From Rudanella lutea DSM 19387 (GTDB lineage Bacteria; Bacteroidota; Bacteroidia; Cytophagales; Spirosomataceae), in the NCBI RefSeq assembly GCF_000383955.1, contig NZ_KB913013.1, forward strand, positions 4,421,694 through 4,485,693: a DNA stretch of 64,000 nucleotides, in the 5' to 3' direction. The notes beneath the pieces were generated by a model. The model did no database searches, had not been told where the DNA came from, and saw nothing but the letters and a program-made list of their open reading frames with translations. The number at the start of each line of letters is the position of its first letter. Positions within the stretch are counted from its first letter, which is position 1. The position numbers were made by a program, and so were the translations under genes. Positions 2,124-62,606 of this stretch are shown here, one piece after another.

Positions 2124-4778
2124 ATGCCTACTTCTTCTCCCCAACCTGACGCCGAACGGCTGCGTGTTTTGGCCAACGATCAAAAGCCGGTGCCCCTCGA
2201 AAAATGGGGACCGTACCTGTCGGATCGGCAGTGGGGCACCGTCCGCGAAGATTACTCGGCCAATGGTGATGCCTGGAACTACTTCCCGCACGATCATGCC
2301 CGCGCGCGGGTGTACCGCTGGGGCGAAGATGGGCTACTGGGTATTTCGGACCGGCGGCAGCATGTGTGTTTCGGGCTCGCCCTCTGGAACCACTCCGACC
2401 GGATTCTGAAAGAACGCCTTTTTGGCCTGACCAATGGTGAGGGTAACCACGGCGAAGACGTGAAGGAGCTGTATTATTATCTCGACAACACGCCCACACA
2501 CTCGTACATGAATGCCCTCTACAAGTATCCGCAGGGCCCGTTTCCGTACGAACAACTGCTGACCGAAAACGCCCGCCGTTCGCGAAACGATACCGAGTTT
2601 GAACTGCTCGATACGGGGATTTTCGACGGGGGGCGTTACTTCGATGTGGTTGTTGAATATGCCAAAAATAACCCCGACGATGTGTGTATTCGTATCACGG
2701 TCACCAATCGGGGGCCGCAACCGGCCGACCTGACATTACTCCCCACTCTTTGGTGCCGCAACCGCTGGGCTTTCGAGCCGAATTACGAAAAACCGCTTAT
2801 CAACCGGCGGCCCGATATGCCCATGGGCGGAGTGGCCCACCTGAAACACCCCCGGCTGGGCGACTACTACTTTTACTACCAGCCAACCGACACCGCGTTG
2901 ATGACCGAAAACGAAACCAACACGAGTCGGTTATTCAACATGCCCAATGAGAATCCGTTTGTGAAAGATGCGTTTCATGGGGCCATTGCTGCTCAAAACG
3001 ATTACCTATGTACGCTGCTCCGCGAAAACCCGACGGGTACCAAGTTTGCGCCCGTGTACCGGCTTCGTATCCCGGCTGGAGATGCAAAAACGGTCTGTTT
3101 GCGGCTGTCGAAAGAGGCAAATACCCGGCCGTTTGACGAGGAATTTGGTGAGGTGTTTACCCGTCGAATAGCCGAGGCCGACCAATTCCATAACCGGCTG
3201 GTTCCGGCGCAGGCCACGGCCGAGCAGAAGCTGATTCAGCGGCAGGCACTGGCGGGGTTGCTCTGGTCGAAACAATATTATCACTACGACATACCGCGCT
3301 GGCTCCACGGCGACCCCGGCCACCTGCCTCCTCCGCCTGAGCGGGTGCTGGGCCGCAACAATCGTTGGGAACACCTCAACAATGAAGACGTCCTCTCGAT
3401 GCCCGACAAGTGGGAGTACCCGTGGTACGCGGCCTGGGATCTGGCGTTTCATTGTGTTCCGATGGCGATGGTCGATCCAGGCTTTGCCAAGCATCAGCTC
3501 ATTTTGCTCATGCGCGAGTGGTACATGAGCCCACAGGGGCAGATACCGGCTTACGAATGGAATTTTTCGGATGTAAACCCGCCTGTTCATGCCTGGGCGG
3601 CCCTGTCGGTGTACCGGATTGAGCGGGCCTTGCACGGCAACGCCGACGTGTCGTTTCTGAAACGGGTATTTCAGAAGCTGCTGATCAATTTTACGTGGTG
3701 GGCCAACCGGCAGGACGAAGAAGAAAACAACGTGTTTAGCGGTGGCTTTCTGGGGCTCGACAACATTGGGGTCATTAACCGGAGCCACCTGCCGCCGGGT
3801 ACGCTGCTCGAACAGGCCGATGCCACCGCCTGGATGGGCATGTACGCCCTCAACATGATGGACATTGCGCTGGAGATCACCCAATTCGATCCGACGTTTG
3901 AAGACGTGGCCACCAAGTTTTACGAACAGTACGTGCTCATTGCTGAGTCGCTGAACGGGGAGTTGTGGGACGATGACGAACACTTTTTCTACGACCTGCT
4001 GCACCCCAACACAGGCCCTTCGACCAAGCTACGGGTACGCTCGGTGGTGGGGCTCACGGTCTTGTTTGCCGTGTCGGTGATCAAGCACGAAAAGAGTCAG
4101 CCGCTGGCCGATTTTCTGAAGCGGATGCGGTTTTTCCAGAAATACCACCGCGAACTCGGTCGGCCCCTGCCCGAGCAGCGGGTCAATGCCGGGGGCGACA
4201 TTCTGCTGTCGATGATTTCGGAAGAGCGGCTGGTGAAACTGCTGGAGGTGATGCTTGATGAGTCGGAGTTTTTGTCGCCGGGGGGCGTCCGGGCTTTGTC
4301 GAAATACCACGAACAGCATCCGTACAGTGTGCAGATCGACGGTGAGCTTCATAGTATCCGGTACGTCCCCGGCGACTCCGACACGGGCATGTTTGGCGGT
4401 AACTCCAACTGGCGTGGGCCGGTCTGGATGCCGATCAATTACCTGCTCATCAAGGCGTTGAAAAAGTACCATCAGTTTTTCGGCGATACGCTGACGGTCG
4501 AGTTTCCAACGGGGTCGGGCAACCGGCTCACCCTGCGTGAGGTATCGGACCGGCTGGCCCGGCGGATGGTGTCTATTTTTGAGCGCGACGATACGGGCAA
4601 CCGGCCGGTTCACGGGCCGTACAACTCATTTTACAGTCGACCCGAAAACGTCGATCTGCTGTTGTTTTTCGAGTACTTCCACGGCGATACGGCGGCCGGC
4701 ATCGGGGCCAGTCACCAAACCGGCTGGACAGCCGTGGTGGCCGAACTCATCAACGACGATGCCTGGGAGTGGGAGTGA
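2124..4778 (+). CDS. Large glycoside hydrolase, GH63/MGH1-like glucosidase
   Basis: 884 residues from ATG 2124. The open frame extends back to a TTG at 2076 that overlaps the SDR stop, but ATG 2124 is a better start. The C-terminal half carries the (alpha/alpha)6-barrel signatures of GH63-like glucosidases: [49 protein letters not shown] and the terminal [14 protein letters not shown]. No signal peptide is seen, so it probably acts in the cytoplasm on alpha-glucosides or mannosylglycerate-type substrates (inference). The last 61-78 bp of the gene are repeated twice downstream. The gene ends in TGA, whereas both downstream copies of its end read TAG, suggesting that its present terminus was rebuilt by an insertion. 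Confidence 0.88.
4699..4776 (+). repeat. Gene-end repeat, copy A (inside the glucosidase 3' end)
   Basis: The last 78 bases of the glucosidase gene up to the T of its stop codon. Positions 4716-4776 are identical to 5463-5523 (61 bp). Positions 4699-4776 match 6298-6375 with one difference. The repeat encodes the conserved C-terminus starting [10 protein letters not shown]. It is followed here by GA, completing a TGA stop. Confidence 0.95.
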
Positions 4779-5180
4779 CTATGCCTGAATGATTCGCACG
4801 AAGGGCGAGTAAAGCGGGAAATGCTCATCGGCCGAAATAAGCGGAGTGCCTTCAACTAAAGCTGTGGCTAATAACAATCGGTCGAAAGGATCACGATGTT
4901 GGCCGTACAAAGGAATACGGTCGTAAGCGGTAATATGCTTACGGTCGATGGGTAAGAGGTGAAATCCGTCAGACTGTAGCTGATCGGCAAGGGCATCGGT
5001 CGACAGGGCCAAGCCTGGCAGCCGCCCTATTTTCTGTTTAATTGCAATTTCAAGCAAGCTAACCTCACTAACCAGAATGACATTTTCTTGCAAAATAGTT
5101 TGTACAGCAGGAATAATCATTGAAGGGTTAATGACACTCCAAATCACAATCTGCGTATCGGCCAGATACGATTGCTCCAT
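4779..5180 (-). CDS. vapC: VapC-type PIN-domain toxin
   Basis: A 133-residue PIN-domain protein, the usual VapC length. The acidic residues expected for the metal-dependent ribonuclease site are visible: Asp in LADTQIVIW near the N-terminus, Glu in SLLEIAIKQKIG, and Asp in HRDPFDRLLLATA near residue 100. VapC toxins cleave RNA, commonly tRNA or rRNA. The start chosen is ATG 5180-5178, which shares its A with the antitoxin stop (TGATG), a coupled arrangement. A GTG three bases upstream is an alternative. Its stop (complement of 4779-4781) lies directly against the glucosidase stop, so the cassette begins with essentially no spacer. Confidence 0.88.
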   Translation of the reverse strand: MEQSYLADTQIVIWSVINPSMIIPAVQTILQENVILVSEVSLLEIAIKQKIGRLPGLALSTDALADQLQSDGFHLLPIDRKHITAYDRIPLYGQHRDPFDRLLLATALVEGTPLISADEHFPLYSPFVRIIQA

Positions 5181-5401
5181 CACATATAGTCGTTTAAATC
5201 ATCTAAAGGCTCATTGAAATTATCAGGTATACTATACTGTCCTTCCAGGCTGCCTAATCGAACGCCTTTCCGCAGAGGTACAGAGTCTGTTGACGATTCG
5301 TCCAGAAACAACACAACAACTTTTGCTTTTCGAGTGGTAGGAGGACGTTCTGTCAACGTTAGCTGCCCGTTTTCGTAGATGCCATTAACCGCCGTATACA
5401 T
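5180..5401 (-). CDS. vapB: VapB-like antitoxin (DUF2281/AF2212-like)
   Basis: 73 residues. The N-terminal part (AVNGIYENGQLTLTERPP) resembles AF2212-like small antitoxins, and the C-terminal SIPDNFNEPLDDLNDYM resembles the DUF2281 tail found in antitoxins paired with PIN toxins. It precedes vapC and their stop and start codons share one base, the normal antitoxin-first order. It should bind and neutralise VapC and autoregulate the operon (family knowledge). ATG 5401 is the only sensible start. A TATCTTTG promoter box lies about 25 bp upstream. Confidence 0.82.
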   Translation of the reverse strand: MYTAVNGIYENGQLTLTERPPTTRKAKVVVLFLDESSTDSVPLRKGVRLGSLEGQYSIPDNFNEPLDDLNDYM

Positions 5402-5424
5402 AGTTTGGGCTTGTTTGTTTTTAC

Positions 5425-5432
5425 CAAAGATA
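5425..5432 (-). promoter_or_regulatory. Candidate -7 box of the vapBC promoter
   Basis: On the minus strand it reads TATCTTTG, matching the Bacteroidota -7 consensus TAnnTTTG, 24 bp upstream of the antitoxin start. No clear TTG -33 box is seen at the expected distance. Confidence 0.45.
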
Positions 5433-5462
5433 CGTTAAAACTCACTTGGTTTATACTAACAT

Positions 5463-5523
5463 CAAACCGGCTGGACAGCCGTGGTGGCCGAACTCATCAA
5501 CGACGATGCCTGGGAGTGGGAGT
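5463..5523 (+). repeat. Gene-end repeat, copy B
   Basis: 61 bp identical to 4716-4776. The match begins at CAAACCGG and ends at GGGAGT. The base before the match differs (T instead of C), and the following bases AG create a TAG stop in the original frame. It separates the vapBC and xisHI cassettes and has no start of its own. Confidence 0.95.
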
Positions 5524-5549
5524 AGGGAAATTTGTGTATTTTAGCTGAC

Positions 5550-5960
5550 ATGGCAAGAGATCTTTACCATGAAGCGGCTAAAAAAGCGCTTATTCAGGAT
5601 GGATGGACCATCACGCACGATCCGTTACGAATTGCTATTGGCCGTCGGCAGGCTTACATTGATTTAGGGGCTAAAGATTTGGTGGGGGCCGAACGCGACG
5701 GGAGAACCATCGCAGTAGAGATCAAAAGCTTTTTGAATCCGTCTTTGTTAGATGATCTATACCATGCTGTGGGGCAGTATCAGCTTTATCGACTCGCACT
5801 CGCAGAGCGTGAGCCAGGTACGGTGCTTTATTTAGCGTTGCCATCGACAGCCTGGCAGATTATTGACGAAGACCAAATTAGTGACTTCTTTAGTCGGCTG
5901 GCTATTCGAGTGCTGATTTTTGATCCGCTATCAAACCAAGTGACAAAATGGATAAACTAG
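5550..5960 (+). CDS. xisH: XisH family protein (fdxN-element excision controlling factor)
   Basis: 136 residues from ATG 5550. It matches the XisH family from start (MARDLYHEAAKKAL) to end. In the middle, YIDLGAKDL followed about 15 residues later by VEIKSF forms a D...ExK pattern of the PD-(D/E)XK nuclease superfamily. XisH was named for its requirement in excision of the Anabaena fdxN element, but most homologues lie outside such elements and their biochemical role is not settled. It overlaps xisI by 13 bp, so translation is probably coupled. Here it is the first gene of a small cassette bounded by copies of a gene end. Confidence 0.92.
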   Translation: MARDLYHEAAKKALIQDGWTITHDPLRIAIGRRQAYIDLGAKDLVGAERDGRTIAVEIKSFLNPSLLDDLYHAVGQYQLYRLALAEREPGTVLYLALPSTAWQIIDEDQISDFFSRLAIRVLIFDPLSNQVTKWIN

Positions 5961-6283
5961 ATAGATACCGCCAATTGATTCAACAACTATTGATTGAACA
6001 AACCAGCGTGCCGTATGCATACGGAGAGATAACTATTGAAACCATTTTTGATACAGCTAACGACCGGTATATGCTTGCCGATGTGGGCTGGGACCGTACG
6101 GGGCGCGTGTACGGTATCATTGCACATATTGATATTATCGGTGGCAAATTCTGGATACAACGCGACGGAACCGAAGAAAGTATTCCGGTCATGCTCTTGA
6201 ACAAAGGAGTTCCTCGAGAAGACATTGTTGTAGCGTATCGGACCCCAGCTGAGCGGGAACTAATGGGGTTTGCTGTTGCCTGA
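5948..6283 (+). CDS. xisI: XisI family protein
   Basis: 111 residues, the standard XisI length, starting MDKLDRYRQLIQQLL and ending with the family-typical GVPREDIVVAYRTPAERELM. XisI is nearly always encoded directly after xisH and probably forms a complex with it. It overlaps the end of xisH by 13 bp. Only about 14 bases separate its stop from the beginning of repeat copy C, so the cassette has almost no spare DNA. A toxin/antidote relation between XisH (nuclease-like) and XisI is an inference, prompted here by its position next to vapBC. Confidence 0.92.
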   Translation: MDKLDRYRQLIQQLLIEQTSVPYAYGEITIETIFDTANDRYMLADVGWDRTGRVYGIIAHIDIIGGKFWIQRDGTEESIPVMLLNKGVPREDIVVAYRTPAERELMGFAVA

Positions 6284-6297
6284 ACATAGCCAGTGGA

Positions 6298-6375
6298 GCA
6301 TCGGGGCTAGTCACCAAACCGGCTGGACAGCCGTGGTGGCCGAACTCATCAACGACGATGCCTGGGAGTGGGAGT
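6298..6375 (+). repeat. Gene-end repeat, copy C
   Basis: 78 bp matching 4699-4776 with a single C-to-T change at 6310. In the glucosidase frame the change is GCC to GCT, still Ala. The copy is followed by AG, giving a TAG stop. It is longer on its left side than copy B by 17 bp. Confidence 0.94.
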
Positions 6376-6398
6376 AGGCGGTTTGTCCTACTTCCCGA

Positions 6399-8837
6399 TT
6401 AGCTCTTTACCCGCTGTTGTTCGGTGTCTGACCCGCCGGTTTGCCGTTGTTTGAGCGTCTGACCATTGCTGAACCGGTACGAGAAAGAGACGGTTACCAC
6501 GCGGCTGTCCAGATAACTGTACCAGCGGGCGGTCGAATTGGCCAGCCCTTTGATGGTGCCCCCAACCTGATTGGTGTACAGCACATCGCTCAGAGCCAGC
6601 TTGGCCGTCCCCTTATTTTTCAGCACCTTCATCGAAACCGCTACCCGAACCTGGCCCACCGGAATCACCACAAACTGCCCGAAATAAGCGCGGGTCTGGT
6701 ACATCCCGCCCAGCTCGGCATTCCAGGTGGCACTCAGCCTGAACTGATTGGTAGGGGCTACGTGCCAGTACGTACCCGCATTGTCGAGCAACTGAGTGCC
6801 CAGTTGGGCGCGGAAACGGTTGTGCATCACCTCCGTGTAAAACTGGATTGTCCACCATTTGGCGGGCTGGTACGAGCCATTGATTGCCACGCCGTAGCTG
6901 ATCTGTTGGCCGATGTTGCCGGGGCGGCTGTAAAACACGGGGCTCCGCTGCTCAATTGTTTCGGTGATAACGTCTTTTACCCGGCTGTAACGCAGGGTTG
7001 TTGTGATGGTGCTGTTCCAGGTATGCGATATCTCCAGATTGCCCGAAAACGTAGGTCGCAAAAACGGGTTGCCACCGTAGAGCGTAAACCGATCGAGGGG
7101 GTAGGTGAAGGGATTCATGGCCTGATAGTCGGGCCGGTCGATTCGGCGGCTGAACGAGAGCCCAAGCTGATGTTTGCCGGCTGAGTCGAGCCGGTACGTG
7201 GCATAAACCGTCGGGAAAAGATTGTTGTATTGCCGCGTGAACGACGAGTCTTTTACTTCCGGGTTTCCTAACTGGTGGCCTTCAATGGCCGTGTTCTCAA
7301 ACCGAAGCCCCGTTTGTACCGACAGCCGCCCGCGTTCGACGTTGTAATTGAGGTACCCGGCCTGAATGCGCTCAGCGTAGTTGAACGCGTTCGAAAAGGT
7401 GTAGTTGGGCCGCGGCTGTCCGTCGATCACGTCGAAAAAGCTCGCTCGGTTGCCCGTCTGAATACGGCTTAGCTTGGCCCCGCCTGCCAGCTTACTTCCT
7501 TTTGCCAGCGGATGCACATAATCCAGCTTGGCCGTCAGAATATCAATGGAAGTGGGTAGCGACGAATCCAGTAGGGTGTTCTCGTTAGTCTGCCCGGTTG
7601 CGAATACCCGATTGGCGAGCGATTGGCTCAGGTCAGAACGGTACGTCAGATAGTCGACGTTGGTGGTGAGTTCGCGCCCGGTACTGTCGAACGAGTGGGT
7701 AAAATTCAGGTTCACGCTGCCGTTTCGGAGCACCTTATCGGCTCGGCTGAGGGCCTCAACGCGCGCGGTTAGTTTGTCGGTTGCATCACTCACGCGGGCG
7801 CTGTTGGTAATGGTGGCCAGAGTGGGGTTGCGGAAACCGCTTAAAACCACCCCGAACGTCGATTTTGGGGTGATGAGCCAGTCGAAACCGGCCTTGAGCG
7901 TGGCTCCGTTGAGCCGACGGCGGATGTATGAGTTTTGGGTGAACCGCGACTCCAGGTTGCCATTGGGCAGAAAATACTCGCGCCAGATGGTCAGGTCCTG
8001 GTACATGTTCACCGTGTTGAGGCTCGCATTTCCAAAGAAATTAAGGTTACCCGTTCGGTAATTGAGGTTCGCACTGTTGTTGCTCCGGTGGTAACGGCCC
8101 TGCCCATAGCTCAGGTTGAGTCCCCCGTTGAAACCACGGGCTTTCGTTTTTTTGAGCCGGATATTGATCACACCCGCGTTACCGGCCGCATCGTACCGGG
8201 CGGGTGGGTTGGTCATAATGTCGATGGCTTCGACCGAGCCGGCTGGTAGCGACCGGAGGTAATTGGCCAGGTCGGCGGCCGACAGATAGGTGGGCTTATC
8301 GTCGACGAATACGACCACTCCGCTCCGCCCCCGCAGGCTGATGTTGCCGTTGGCATCGACCTGCACACCCGGCGATTTTTCGAGCACATCGAGCGACGTG
8401 GTGCCCGCATTGCTGATGAGGGCGTCCGGATTAACCGTAACCCGGTCGATGCGCTGCTCCACAAAAGCTTTTCGGGCGGTTACCTGCACTTCGCCGAGCG
8501 TTTTTTCGGCCGGTACCAGCCGAATATCGGGAAGGGTGTGCGTAGACAGTCCGGCTTCAAACCCGAACGGGGCACTGAGGTAAGGCTGATAGCCCAGGTA
8601 ATTCACCGACACCCGAAACGATCCGGTTGGCAGGTTTACAACCAGAAACTGACCGCTTGCATCGGTCAGGGCTGCTTTGACAAAGGTTGAGTCGGCGGCT
8701 TTGACTACCGCTACCACGGCGCCCTCAATCGGTTTGCGGTCGGGATCGGTGATGAGGCCCTGAAGGGTGTGCGTTTGCGCGTGAGCAGCACCGAGAGCAA
8801 GCAGAAGAAAGAGCGAAGTAAAGAGAAAGAAACGCAT
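6399..8837 (-). CDS. Outer-membrane beta-barrel receptor with carboxypeptidase-regulatory-like N-domain (TonB-dependent type)
   Basis: 812 residues from ATG 8837, chosen because it begins the signal peptide MRFFLFTSLFLLLALGAAHA; the open frame extends further upstream without one. The order is: a carboxypeptidase-regulatory-like domain (TLQGLITDPDRKPIEGAV, about residues 24-105), a plug domain (NPDALISNAGTTSLDVLEKS, then GNISLRGRSGVVVFVDDKPT and IDIMTNPPARYDAAGNAG), and a long barrel with many aromatic beta-strands ending SYRFSNGQTLKQRQTGGSD. This is the outer membrane beta-barrel family common in Bacteroidota. The ligand is unknown and no SusD partner is adjacent. The gene is monocistronic. 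Confidence 0.88.
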   Translation of the reverse strand: MRFFLFTSLFLLLALGAAHAQTHTLQGLITDPDRKPIEGAVVAVVKAADSTFVKAALTDASGQFLVVNLPTGSFRVSVNYLGYQPYLSAPFGFEAGLSTHTLPDIRLVPAEKTLGEVQVTARKAFVEQRIDRVTVNPDALISNAGTTSLDVLEKSPGVQVDANGNISLRGRSGVVVFVDDKPTYLSAADLANYLRSLPAGSVEAIDIMTNPPARYDAAGNAGVINIRLKKTKARGFNGGLNLSYGQGRYHRSNNSANLNYRTGNLNFFGNASLNTVNMYQDLTIWREYFLPNGNLESRFTQNSYIRRRLNGATLKAGFDWLITPKSTFGVVLSGFRNPTLATITNSARVSDATDKLTARVEALSRADKVLRNGSVNLNFTHSFDSTGRELTTNVDYLTYRSDLSQSLANRVFATGQTNENTLLDSSLPTSIDILTAKLDYVHPLAKGSKLAGGAKLSRIQTGNRASFFDVIDGQPRPNYTFSNAFNYAERIQAGYLNYNVERGRLSVQTGLRFENTAIEGHQLGNPEVKDSSFTRQYNNLFPTVYATYRLDSAGKHQLGLSFSRRIDRPDYQAMNPFTYPLDRFTLYGGNPFLRPTFSGNLEISHTWNSTITTTLRYSRVKDVITETIEQRSPVFYSRPGNIGQQISYGVAINGSYQPAKWWTIQFYTEVMHNRFRAQLGTQLLDNAGTYWHVAPTNQFRLSATWNAELGGMYQTRAYFGQFVVIPVGQVRVAVSMKVLKNKGTAKLALSDVLYTNQVGGTIKGLANSTARWYSYLDSRVVTVSFSYRFSNGQTLKQRQTGGSDTEQQRVKS

Positions 8838-8965
8838 GACCGGGGTTGTTGACGGAAAACCAATGGCCAAAGTTGCCTCAGCCGGGAGCCTCCCAAAACG
8901 TGTCTTGTTGCGAACGGCAAAAAACGCGCCCTGAACTGTACGAAGCCCCGCTGTAATTGCGCGCA

Positions 8966-9008
8966 AATAAAAACCCGTACCAATTGCCAACCAGGCACTC
9001 GGTACGGG
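8966..9008 (-). terminator. Intrinsic terminator of leuS
   Basis: The inverted repeat CCCGTACC (8974-8981) / GGTACGGG (9001-9008), read on the minus strand, is followed by a T-rich tract (complement of 8966-8973). It lies 65 bp past the leuS stop. Confidence 0.8.
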
Positions 9009-9072: not shown

Positions 9073-12006
9073 TTACAGCACCACGTTTACAATCCGCTTC
9101 GGCACAACCACCACTTTTTTGGGTGTTTTGCCATCGAGCCACTTCTGCACCACCTCGTCGGCCAGTACGGCCTGCTCAATATCGGCCGGGGCCCGGTCAA
9201 CGGCGAAGCTGATGGTTGTCCGCACTTTGCCGTTAATCTGAATAGGGTATTCGAAGCTGTCTTCGACTAGATACGCCGGGTTGAAGACCGGGAAGCTGGC
9301 CCGCGACACACTGCCGGGTTCGTTGCCGAGAGCCGCCCACAGTTCTTCGCAGATGTGAGGTGCGTAGGGCGACAGAATAAGCACCAGATCGGACAGGATT
9401 GCCCGCTTGTGGCAGTCGAGGGCCGTTAGTTCGTTCACGCACACCATAAAGGCCGAGACCGAGGTATTGAACGAATAGTTTTCGATGTCGTCCTGCACCT
9501 TTTTGATCGTCTTGTGCAAAACCTTCAGTTCGGCCGGGGTAGGAGCTGCATCGGTCACAATCCAGCGGCCTGTTTCGGGCTGACCATCGGCAGCGGGTGC
9601 ATCTTTGTAGAACAAACGCCAGAACTTACGCAGGAAGCGGAACGTACCGTCGATACCGTTGGTGTTCCAGGGTTTGGCCTGCTCAATAGGGCCCAGAAAC
9701 ATCTCGTACATCCGCAACGTATCGGCCCCGTACTTCTCCACAATGGTGTCGGGGTTCACGACGTTGAACTTTGACTTCGACATTTTCTCGACTTCAGCCC
9801 CGCATACATACGTGCCGTTGTCTTCGAGTTCAAACTGCGCGGGCAGGCCGTCGGGGCTTTGCGTGAAGTCGGGCCGCGATGCGCGGAAAGCCTCAACGTC
9901 GAGCACATCATTGTGGACAATATTCACGTCGACGTGCAGGGGCGTAACCTCGCGACCGGCAATTTTATTCAGCGACACAAAAACCGGCGCTACTCCTTCT
10001 GAGCCCGTGCCTTTGAGCCGGTACACAAAGTTGCTCCGGCCCTGAATCATGCCCTGATTGATGAGCTTTTTAAATGGCTCCTCCTGCGTTACGTAGCCCC
10101 GATCTTTAAGGAACTTGTTCCAGAAACGGCTGTAGAGCAGGTGGCCCGTTGCGTGCTCGGAGCCGCCCATGTACAGGTCGACACTTTCCCAATACTGAAT
10201 GGCTTCGGGGCCCGCAAAGGCGTCGGGGTTTTGCGGGTCCATGTACCGATACCAATACCACGACGACCCCGCCCAGCCGGGCATGGTGCTCAGTTCGTAC
10301 TCATATTCTCCCTGGTATTTCCAGTCTTCGGCGCGGCCGAGCGGGGGCTCACCCGTTTCGGTAGGGAGGTATTTATCTACGGCGGGTAGCCCAAGTGGCA
10401 GGTCGGCCTCGTCGATCAGGTACGGCAACTGACCTGTTGAACCGCCTTCTTTGAAATAAACGGGCACCGGCTCGCCCCAGTAGCGCTGGCGGCTAAACAC
10501 GGCGTCGCGCATCCGAAAATTCACTTTGCCACGGCCCAGACCACGCTCTTCGAGCCAGGCAATCAGGGTGGCCGTGGCCTCCTGGTAGGTCATGCCATTG
10601 ATAATACCCGAGTTGATGTACCGGCCTTCTTTGGTGTTGTCGGCCTGCTGATCGAGGTCTTTCTGGGCGTCGAGAACGGGGATAATAGGCAGGCCAAACT
10701 GCTTCGCAAAGCCATAGTCGCGCGCATCGCCCGAGGGTACGGCCATAACGGCTCCGGTACCGTATCCGGCCAGCACATAATCGGCCAGGAAGATGGGGAC
10801 TTTCTCGTTGTTCAGCGGATTAAGGCAGTAGCTGCCCGTAAATACACCCGAAACCGTTTTGGTATCGGCCATACGATCCCGCTCCGACCGCATTTTGGCG
10901 GCCTGCACATACGCGTCAACGGCCTCGCGCTGAGCGTCGGTGGTGAGGCTGGGTACCAGTTCGTGTTCGGGGGCCAGAACCATGAAGGTCACGCCGTAAA
11001 TCGTATCGACGCGGGTGGTGAACACTTCAATGAAGGAGTGAGGAGCGAGAAGTGAGGAGTGAGGAGTCGCTTGCGCCAGCCCTTTCTCCTCACTCCTCAC
11101 TTCTCGCTCCTCACTCCTTTCAATCTGAAACTTTACACTGGCCCCTACGCTCTTGCCGATCCAGTTGCGTTGCTGTTCTTTGAGCGACTCCGACCAGTCG
11201 ATGGTGTCGAGACCACTCAGGAGCCGGTCGGCATAGGCGGTAATGCGCATCATCCACTGGCGCATCAGCTTTTGCTCCACGGGGTAGCCGCCCCGCTCTG
11301 ATACGCCGTCTTTCACTTCGTCGTTGGCGAGTACCGTGCCGAGGGCCGGGCACCAGTTCACCACGGCATCGGCCAGGTAGGTGAGCCGGTATTTAAGCGT
11401 AATTTCGTAGGATTGCTCCTTCGACAGGGCGTTCCACTCGGCGGCCGTAAACTGGAGGGCCTGCGTTTCCTCGTCACAAACCGCGTTTACGTCGGTGGTG
11501 CCGTTGGTGGCAAACTTATGCAGCAGGGTTTCGATGGGCTCGGCCCGGTCGGTGTCTTTGTTGTACCAAGACCGGAACAACTCCATAAAAATCCACTGGG
11601 TCCATTTGTAGTAACCGGGGTCAGAGGTGCGTACCTCGCGGCTCCAGTCGTAGCTGAACCCAATTTGTTTTAGCTGCTCAATGTACGTGGCAATGTTTTG
11701 CTCGGTTGTGATGGCCGGGTGTTGCCCCGTCTGAATAGCATACTGTTCGGCGGGCAGACCAAACGAGTCGAAGCCCATTGGGTGCAGCACGTTGAAGCCC
11801 TGCAACCGCTTGTACCGCGACACAATGTCCGACGCGATGTACCCCAGCGGGTGACCGACGTGTAGCCCCGCCCCCGACGGGTATGGAAACATATCGAGGA
11901 CGTAGTACTTGGGTTTGGCGGGGTCAGTTTCGGTACGGTACGTCTGGTTTTCGTCCCAGAACTGCCGCCATTTTTGTTCGGTCTCGCGGTGGTTGTAATC
12001 GGCCAT
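9073..12006 (-). CDS. leuS: Leucyl-tRNA synthetase with an in-frame palindromic insertion
   Basis: 977 residues. It charges tRNA-Leu with leucine in the cytoplasm. The HIGH-type motif HVGH is at residues 49-52 after PYPSGAGL, and KMSKS is at 741-745. The CP1 editing domain is recognisable ([20 protein letters not shown]), followed by the anticodon-binding and C-terminal domains. Residues ~296-325 are encoded by a perfect 34-bp inverted repeat with a 19-bp loop (11033-11119). The inserted peptide is rich in Ser, Glu and Arg and sits between two strands at the entrance of the editing domain (between GASVKFQIE and FIEVFTTR). The frame is kept, so the enzyme is probably functional. A TATTTTTG box lies ~120 bp upstream. 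Confidence 0.97.
11033..11119. repeat. Heptad-built perfect inverted repeat inside leuS
   Basis: Left arm 11033-11066 and right arm 11086-11119 are exact reverse complements over 34 bp; the loop is 11067-11085. The right arm is a run of 7-bp units (CTCCTCA, CTCCTCA, CTTCTCG, CTCCTCA, CTCC). The arms plus loop total 87 bp (29 codons), so the leuS frame is preserved. Confidence 0.97.
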
Positions 12007-61532: not shown

Positions 61533-62606
61533 ATGAATCAACCGAAAAACATGCGGTTCGGCGTGGGCGCAGTAGCCATCTTGCTGCTGGCTGGTGGGAG
61601 TGCGGTAGCGCAGGAGAAGGCCAGTACGGGCGCGAATCCAATGTCGGTTCGACCCATCAACGACAATGACATCATGATGAAGAAAACCCTTTGGCGTCGG
61701 ATCGACCTGAAGGAGAAGCAGAATCAATCGATGTTTTCGAAGAATAACGAGATTTCTAAGTACCTGATGGAAGCCGTTAAGTCGGGTCTGCTGGTGGCTT
61801 ATGAAAACGATTCGACGCGTACGCCCATGACACCCGATAAGTTTCAGCAGAAGATTCTGATGCCGAACTCCGGGGGCGGATTGTCGAAAGAAGAAATTGA
61901 GGCCGGTTTCGGTCAGGAGGGTGCCGCCAATGCGAATGACGGTTGGGGCGCACCCGCTAAAAAAGATGCGCCGAAGGCAGCTGCCAAAACAACTGACGAT
62001 GGCTGGGGGGCTCCGGCACCCAAAAAGAAAGCAGAACCTGTTGATGATGGCTGGGGGGCTCCCGCTCCCAAGAAGAAGGCAGTAGCCTCGTCGAAAAAAG
62101 GAGCAAAAGGTAAAGCAACCAAACCGGCTCCGGCTACGGTGGTGGCTGCGGCTCCGGTTGATACGGTAAAAGCAGCGCCGGCTTTTCAAGGCGATGAGTA
62201 CTTTGCTCGTGACCTGAACATTCTGGAGATCAAAGAAGACTGGATTTTCGATCGCAAGCGTTCACGGTTGTACTACGATATCCAAACGGTGACACTTTAC
62301 CTGCCTGCCGACAAGAACCCGGCCGGTCTGGAAGTACCTGTAGCGTCGTTCAAATATGCTGATCTGGACAAACTGTTCCGTTCGGATCCGAAGAAATTTG
62401 TGTGGTACAACCCGCAAAATCAGGCCCAGCATAAAAACCTGGCCGACGCATTTGATCTTCGTTTGTTCTACGGCCGTATTACCAAAGTATCGAACCCCGA
62501 AGACAAAGATCTTGTGGGCGTTTACGGTGATCGTGAAGGCTTGTTGAAGTCAATTCAGACCGAGCACGAGCTGATGGAGATGGAACACGGTTTGTGGGAA
62601 TACTAA
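61533..62606 (+). CDS. gldN: T9SS protein GldN with internal repeat region
   Basis: 357 residues with the signal MNQPKNMRFGVGAVAILLLA near the start. The GldN/PorN core is recognisable in DIMMKKTLWRRIDLKEKQN and ISKYLMEAVKSGLLVAYEND early on, and in AFQGDEYFARDLNILEIKED, DWIFDRKRSRLYYDIQTV and ADAFDLRLFYGRITKVSNPE later. Between them, residues ~135-185 hold three copies of a DDGWGAPA-Lys-rich unit. GldN forms a ring with GldK under the outer membrane. It is the last gene of the operon and has its own terminator. Confidence 0.95.
   Translation: MNQPKNMRFGVGAVAILLLAGGSAVAQEKASTGANPMSVRPINDNDIMMKKTLWRRIDLKEKQNQSMFSKNNEISKYLMEAVKSGLLVAYENDSTRTPMTPDKFQQKILMPNSGGGLSKEEIEAGFGQEGAANANDGWGAPAKKDAPKAAAKTTDDGWGAPAPKKKAEPVDDGWGAPAPKKKAVASSKKGAKGKATKPAPATVVAAAPVDTVKAAPAFQGDEYFARDLNILEIKEDWIFDRKRSRLYYDIQTVTLYLPADKNPAGLEVPVASFKYADLDKLFRSDPKKFVWYNPQNQAQHKNLADAFDLRLFYGRITKVSNPEDKDLVGVYGDREGLLKSIQTEHELMEMEHGLWEY
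61935..62081 (+). repeat. Tandem coding repeats in gldN
   Basis: Three units: 61935-61970 (NDGWGAPAKKDA), 61995-62033 and 62043-62081 (both DDGWGAPAPKKKA). They are separated by short Ala/Lys/Glu-rich linkers and are nearly identical in DNA in the last two copies. Confidence 0.9.

Follow-up and report, generated by a model that had tools for sequence, protein, structure and literature searches.

In the window analysed here, a 64,000-nucleotide stretch of the Rudanella lutea DSM 19387 genome (contig NZ_KB913013.1, positions 4,421,694 to 4,485,693), the 3' end of a glucosidase gene is present three times, and between its copies lie two pairs of small genes, one vapBC-like and one xisHI. We wondered how a gene end comes to be repeated around such pairs, and whether the arrangement is peculiar to this locus. 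The same footprint recurs at other genes and around other pairs; the reading that we favour, to which we give about an even chance, is that insertion with long target duplication, which the literature records for restriction-modification genes, extends to XisHI and to toxin-antitoxin-like pairs, and that recombination through the gene end has probably spread these pairs.

The target gene encodes a GH63-like or MGH1-like glycoside hydrolase (2124..4778, plus strand; PF22422, 78.1 bits; PF03200, 38.4 bits); its open reading frame opens at a TTG at 2076, the ATG at 2124 is the likely start, and the TGA stop lies at 4776-4778. Copy 1 of its 3' end, the working copy, occupies 4699..4776 on the plus strand. 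The first cassette follows, the stops of glucosidase gene and vapC being 0 nt apart, and is read on the minus strand: a vapC-like gene for a PIN-domain toxin (4779..5183; PF01850, 49.7 bits, over the cut-off) and a vapB-like antitoxin gene (5180..5401), which scores 35.5 bits against NF050009, a model with a cut-off of 60, and found no match in the Pfam profile search. A 61-nt spacer upstream of vapB (5402..5462), presumably its promoter, leads to copy 2 (5463..5523, plus strand), which runs into a TAG stop at 5523-5525. The second cassette begins 24 nt after this stop with the ATG of xisH (5550..5960, plus strand; PF08814, 140 bits), a gene of the PD-(D/E)XK nuclease family whose frame opens at a TTG at 5532, and continues into the adjoining xisI (5948..6283, plus strand; PF08869, 126.9 bits), both Pfam models being over their cut-offs. 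After a further 14 nt, copy 3 (6298..6375, plus strand) is joined to the native downstream flank; we read it as the displaced native end of the glucosidase gene. The further listed reading frames of at least 50 amino acids in the insert are short and all overlap these four genes. Neither the list of reading frames nor profile search yielded a recognisable recombinase or transposase gene in either glucosidase cassette, and none of the four cassette proteins had a match in PADLOC.

The three copies are close to one another in sequence: copies 1 and 3, of 78 bp each, are identical at 77 of 78 positions, copy 2 repeats copy 1 without a difference over 61 bp (5463-5523), and copies 2 and 3 match at 98.5% over 67 bp (5460-5526), the direct-repeat pairs in the window measuring 78, 67 and 64 bp. 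Each copy reaches the T of a stop codon, TGA in copy 1 and TAG in copies 2 and 3. An independent-base estimate puts the exact 61-mer repeats expected in 64 kb at about 5e-28, and a whole-genome search for the glucosidase 3' end returned these three copies and no others. The original prediction had described the terminal 61-78 bp of the gene as present three times, with one vapBC and one xisHI pair between the copies and no recombinase on board; coordinates, sequences and profile matches agree with all of this, the VapB-like product being the one below its model's cut-off.

The genus is represented by four genomes, including those that we call G001, G002 and G003. In G001, whose glucosidase protein is 97% identical to the window's, immediately behind the gene comes sequence that matches the outer-membrane beta-barrel or TonB-dependent receptor gene found downstream in the window (6399..8990, minus strand; PF14905, 336.5 bits). 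This is an empty site, and the flank of copy 3 matches it. G002 has a single cassette: xisHI comes immediately after the stop of the glucosidase gene, a short leader like that of the window precedes xisH, and leuS follows the pair; a trailing copy of the gene end was looked for behind this xisHI and not found. The G003 contig stops three bases past the glucosidase stop codon and is uninformative at this site. Because G002 carries xisHI behind the same stop codon, xisHI probably arrived first, and vapBC would have entered the same gene end later. In G001 the cassette was either lost or never present.

The same genome holds a second case. A scan of 864 kb of it, window included, for repeats spaced by 200-5000 bp showed two sites at which the repeats end at a gene stop and bracket two small genes: the glucosidase gene and hisD, the latter assignment being backed by family search. 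At the second (L285:2525-3174) 44 bp of the hisD 3' end are duplicated, at 100% identity, around a DUF4160/DUF2442 pair. The pair is absent behind hisD in all three congeners (G001, G002 and G003), so that an insertion within the lineage of the window itself is the best reading of the hisD cassette; its two hisD copies are identical to each other and differ from the G001 sequence. The other repeat pairs of the scan lie inside repetitive genes, or around other inserts and intergenic stretches (L283, L289, L290, L308, L309, L313 and L317).

XisH is present in 47 of the 222 genomes of the bacterial family. We assembled 158 XisH loci: 60 from the family (a few of them fragments), drawn from the listed matches with further listed fragments left out; the window; the G002 site; 80 named contigs, the best 80 of at least 559; and 16 order-level loci, from which L201, L202, L204, L206 and L208-L212 had been left out as repeats or fragments. 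Three of the named contigs (L159, L164 and L176) seem to repeat family loci L079, L078 and L087. A direct repeat lies tight on both sides of the pair in 24 of the 158, with a length of 28-138 bp; windows shifted within the same loci gave 15 of 1660, from 8 loci. Further XisH loci were bracketed in 6 of 16 cases. Under one criterion for all sets, the footprint was found at 29/174 loci of XisH, 4/29 of VapC relatives, 1/30 of DUF4160 and 0/30 of glyoxalase, the gene position in the last three sets having been put at 1501 to length minus 1500, which is off for a few contig-end loci. With four more regions the VapC relatives become 5/33; placing VapC by tblastn gave the same four bracketed loci and L275, which is among the added regions. 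The window is counted with XisH and not with VapC. The footprint therefore extends beyond XisHI and is not seen in glyoxalase, the sole non-toxin family tested, and most loci of every set are without it. Together with the empty and one-cassette congeners, its presence at other genes and around other gene pairs above controls bears out the original prediction that cassettes had been inserted and the gene end rebuilt.

DUF4160 as a general cargo was rejected, its one locus in 30 being this genome's own hisD case. Another VapC relative of G005 lies at L275 between the copies of a 171-bp repeat (81%). In L058 (2775-6277), insertions that appear to be nested lie close to the 5' end of a gene that we take to encode an ATPase, with repeats of up to 386 bp.

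Where do the cassettes enter? In 8 of 30 tightly bracketed XisH loci the working copy ends no more than 2 nt from the stop codon (L069, L075, L082, L093, L095, L157, L273 and the window). The targets of these stop-ending loci presumably include cysS, uvrB, an RND transporter gene, a RelA/SpoT gene and polA; here and below, the names cysS, gpmI, polA, acrB, uvrB, trpD, RelA/SpoT, heptosyltransferase and epimerase are those that we take the protein ends to indicate. The repeat of L258, L261 and L262 falls at the 3' end of an opposite-strand gene. That of L264 and L266 (near 2896-2972 and 3754-3817, oriented) covers the start codon of the next gene and its surroundings, so that cassettes also enter at gene starts, and at the other bracketed loci the repeat lies in DNA that is not assignable to a gene end. 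Among 91 loci with a co-directional upstream gene, xisH lies within 30 nt of the upstream stop in 31, a few of them bracketed, and a translated search for relics of gene ends was positive in 9 of the 91, against 19 of 8190 mismatched pairs, several of these being the same gene.

Behind an acrB-like gene of G020 lies a decayed xisHI remnant (L249), at which a right-hand copy was not seen; at L273 (2999-3404, oriented) xisH is apparently frame-shifted, and both copies of the polA end are retained.

We compared the lineage of each cassette with its target gene, using an XisHI tree of 71 rows that L273 was too gappy to enter. Cassettes behind the same gene form a single clade for gpmI (5/5), acrB (2/2), polA (3/3), the glucosidase gene (2/2) and trpD (2/2); the groups with members in more than one genus are those of gpmI, acrB and cysS alone. 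At polA, in four genomes, L273 groups with L267 in the gene tree and with L263 in the cassette tree, and this is the one conflict that is two-sided, the gene and cassette trees rejecting each other with nominal p-AU values of 0.0029 and 0.0142. At gpmI the cassettes of L103 and L083, which belong to two genera, group together (p-AU 0.0125 against a clade of the other genus's four). At cysS the gene joins L269 with L106, a grouping that the cassettes reject (p-AU 3.6e-26); this conflict says only that L106 received another cassette. Behind cysS there are two distant XisHI clades, L106 on the one hand and L082, L095, L102 and L269 on the other.

The repeats themselves appear to remain recombinationally active and to convert each other. 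L258 and L261 share their junctions. Over 74 bp the two copies in either genome do not differ, yet 3 of these 74 sites distinguish one genome from the other, and do so in both copies. Conversion of one copy by the other accounts for this pattern most simply. Across 12 loci with repeats at gene 3' ends, changes between copies were synonymous in 43 cases and not in 23 (11 loci vary; L285 has no changes), an excess that persists for neutral synonymous shares up to 0.33 (P 0.008). Most of it is owed to seven loci of low divergence, at 23 to 3. L082 and L095 look like one and the same insertion, and leaving out L082 gives a similar result. The excess surpasses what free drift of a displaced copy would give, as expected if the repeats were recombining alleles of the gene end.

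Shared-word tests on 23 loci, compared with 200 shuffles, found no core word common to more than 5 of the 23. Three words were reached in at most 9 of the 200 shuffles (range 4-9): GCGATCG (4 loci), presumably a common cyanobacterial word, and AAACGC (5 loci) and AATAAAAA (3 loci), which we read as short or low-complexity words.

XisH has been placed in the PD-(D/E)XK superfamily before (in passages of PMC1189080). Our alignment has an invariant D (57/57), E (58/58) and K (59/59), and a Q in 57 of 59 rows. The predicted model, with a mean pLDDT of 89.6, matches two solved XisH structures, 2okf and 2inb, first, and then, at weak E-values, AF2093 and restriction enzymes, among them PaqCI, MspJI and FokI; KRAS entries among the fold matches were taken as spurious for their high root-mean-square deviation. 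XisH is thus predicted to have a nuclease-like fold with the active-site residues, its matches beyond XisH itself being weak. A passage of PMC2674450 states the function of XisHI outside heterocyst-forming cyanobacteria as unknown.

How would these pieces fit together? We suggest that each self-maintaining gene pair, vapBC-like or xisHI, inserts with a long target duplication at a gene end, this first duplication leaving a copy beside the gene body, which would keep the protein whole, and another that would be the displaced end. Recombination between the repeats could excise the cassette and restore the empty site, an idea of circles and repeat recombination that we owe to passages of PMC2869330 on flanking repeats in Arabidopsis. 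With a copy of a conserved gene end on either side, a cassette would carry its own short homology arms, through which homologous recombination might bring it into the same gene of further strains and genera; once there, it would be retained by addiction. The tie between clade and gene end would offer a simple vehicle, a cassette's own homology arm taken from a gene that every recipient has. Because the repeats mark the points of entry, the movement of small addiction-type modules without a transposase becomes testable.

Several observations weigh against insertion followed by spread through the gene end. With 145 of 174 XisH loci lacking a detected repeat, duplication either is not obligatory or decays. 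Window copies 1 and 3 differ at a single site, so that donor and host gene ends are indistinguishable there; at L273, whose cassette is nearest that of L263, both polA copies look host type by eye, and donor arm sequence is thus not seen. Cassettes behind cysS are not one clade, the XisHI of L106 belonging to another, and the clade of the heptosyltransferase pair also holds L087, which has another neighbour. The gpmI gene alone does not reject the alternative grouping (p-AU 0.103); moreover, the groups were named after the trees had been inspected, and their p-values are nominal. The shared junctions of L258 and L261 could be two insertions at one place. Finally, the synonymous excess fades to P 0.06 over all 12 loci at a neutral share of 0.38, and the four higher-divergence loci, taken by themselves, are split 20 to 20 (P 0.08). 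The idea that a foreign patch of gene end is brought in as a general rule was dropped: the hisD copies are identical, the L273 copies look host type, and L264 and L266 have their repeats at gene starts.

Among the alternatives, one gives XisH an active part: it would cut a cassette-free cognate gene end, XisI would protect the carrier, and repair of the break would copy the cassette in, the duplicated end being left by one-sided homology where the downstream flank is non-homologous. We hold this homing to be rather unlikely. Its supports are the invariant D, E and K, the near-invariant Q, the nuclease-like fold and the PD-(D/E)XK listing (passages of PMC1189080), and the fact that several cassette clades follow their target genes, one of them being at odds with the gene tree; it would account for the tie of lineage to target more directly than homology arms do. 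But vapBC-like and DUF4160/DUF2442 pairs, which have no recognised DNA nuclease, share the footprint, and unrelated XisHI stand behind one gene, cysS. Were homing true, the gene-end duplication would be the scar of one-sided repair. The broader proposal, that XisHI is a widespread, target-gene-specific selfish pair of which each lineage recognises one gene end (cysS, gpmI, polA or acrB), cuts the copies that lack a cassette and spreads between genera into precisely this site, with XisI as the immunity protein, is in our view a similarly doubtful possibility.

A further account keeps the insertion with long target duplication, through staggered breaks or replicative repair, and dispenses with most of the spread: selection for whole flanking genes and mostly vertical inheritance with many losses would do the rest. 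The identical hisD copies, which are unlike the G001 sequence, suit it, as do repeats at gene starts and a footprint that is the same as that of restriction-modification systems; the conflict between polA gene and cassette trees does not, nor does the fact that 8 of the 30 loci have a working copy ending no more than 2 nt from the gene's stop. We think it no likelier than homing and well behind the spread of cassettes through gene ends. Much less probable still is the original prediction's own proposal of site-specific integration as at tRNA genes, by a recombinase acting in trans. It would explain why the gene end is restored and why congeners have empty sites, but no recombinase is recognised in the cassettes, the repeats vary from 28 to 138 bp, some of them are gene starts (L264 and L266), and the lack of a core word beyond 5 of 23 loci makes a site-specific recombinase unlikely, though for three words the count was 4-9 of 200 shuffles. 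Least probable of all is a plain tandem duplication of the gene end with the cassettes already in place; it was rejected despite the near identity of copies 1-3, because the sites are empty elsewhere: the glucosidase gene and its neighbour are joined without a cassette in G001, and three congeners have no hisD cassette.

How new is this? Papers that cite Nobusato 2000 and Furuta 2010 credit them with the description of long target duplication. Its occurrence on insertion of restriction-modification genes is described in passages of PMC1643837, PMC3031569 and PMC3874152, so the original prediction that no described system has this form does not stand. As those passages have it, long variable direct repeats of the target, of the order of 100 bp, flank the unit, no known mobile element is linked to it and a related genome has the target in single copy, all as here (PMC1643837, PMC3031569, PMC3874152). 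Our cases differ in cargo, namely XisHI, VapBC-like and DUF4160/DUF2442 pairs, and are hence a variant and not a member; they also differ in the stacking of two cassettes at one gene end and in the tie of several cassette clades to particular target genes. Searches of open-licence papers found neither XisHI or toxin-antitoxin cargo nor stacking nor a lineage-target tie. Homology-facilitated illegitimate recombination, proposed in passages of PMC5361080 for effector-immunity modules of the Vibrio cholerae type VI secretion system, likewise has a conserved anchor and an older sequence displaced downstream, but here the anchor gene is whole and the cassette pair is unrelated to it.

Other systems share parts of the picture. 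The cyanobacterial fdxN element has the same XisH and XisI protein families; it is large and has the XisF recombinase, whereas here the pair is free-standing, with no large element and no XisF in the unit. Fungal mitochondrial DNA elements duplicate the C-terminal end of a gene and, like homing endonuclease genes, are nuclease-bearing units tied to a gene, with the end replaced and the old end displaced; unlike in homing endonuclease genes, pairs without a recognised DNA nuclease behave alike here, and the XisH nuclease is a predicted one. Integrative elements with att sites at gene 3' ends differ in that no recombinase is recognised in our units and no fixed crossover core is shared among the 23 loci compared.

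Two further repeat structures were observed in the window. At 11033-11119, two perfect 34-nt inverted arms lie within leuS with the reading frame kept; G001 has a shorter version of this insert and G002 a different sequence at that place, and its 16-nt core word has no further occurrence in the 864 kb of the same genome. At 61994-62082 there are two 41-bp copies, 88% identical and 48 bp apart from start to start.

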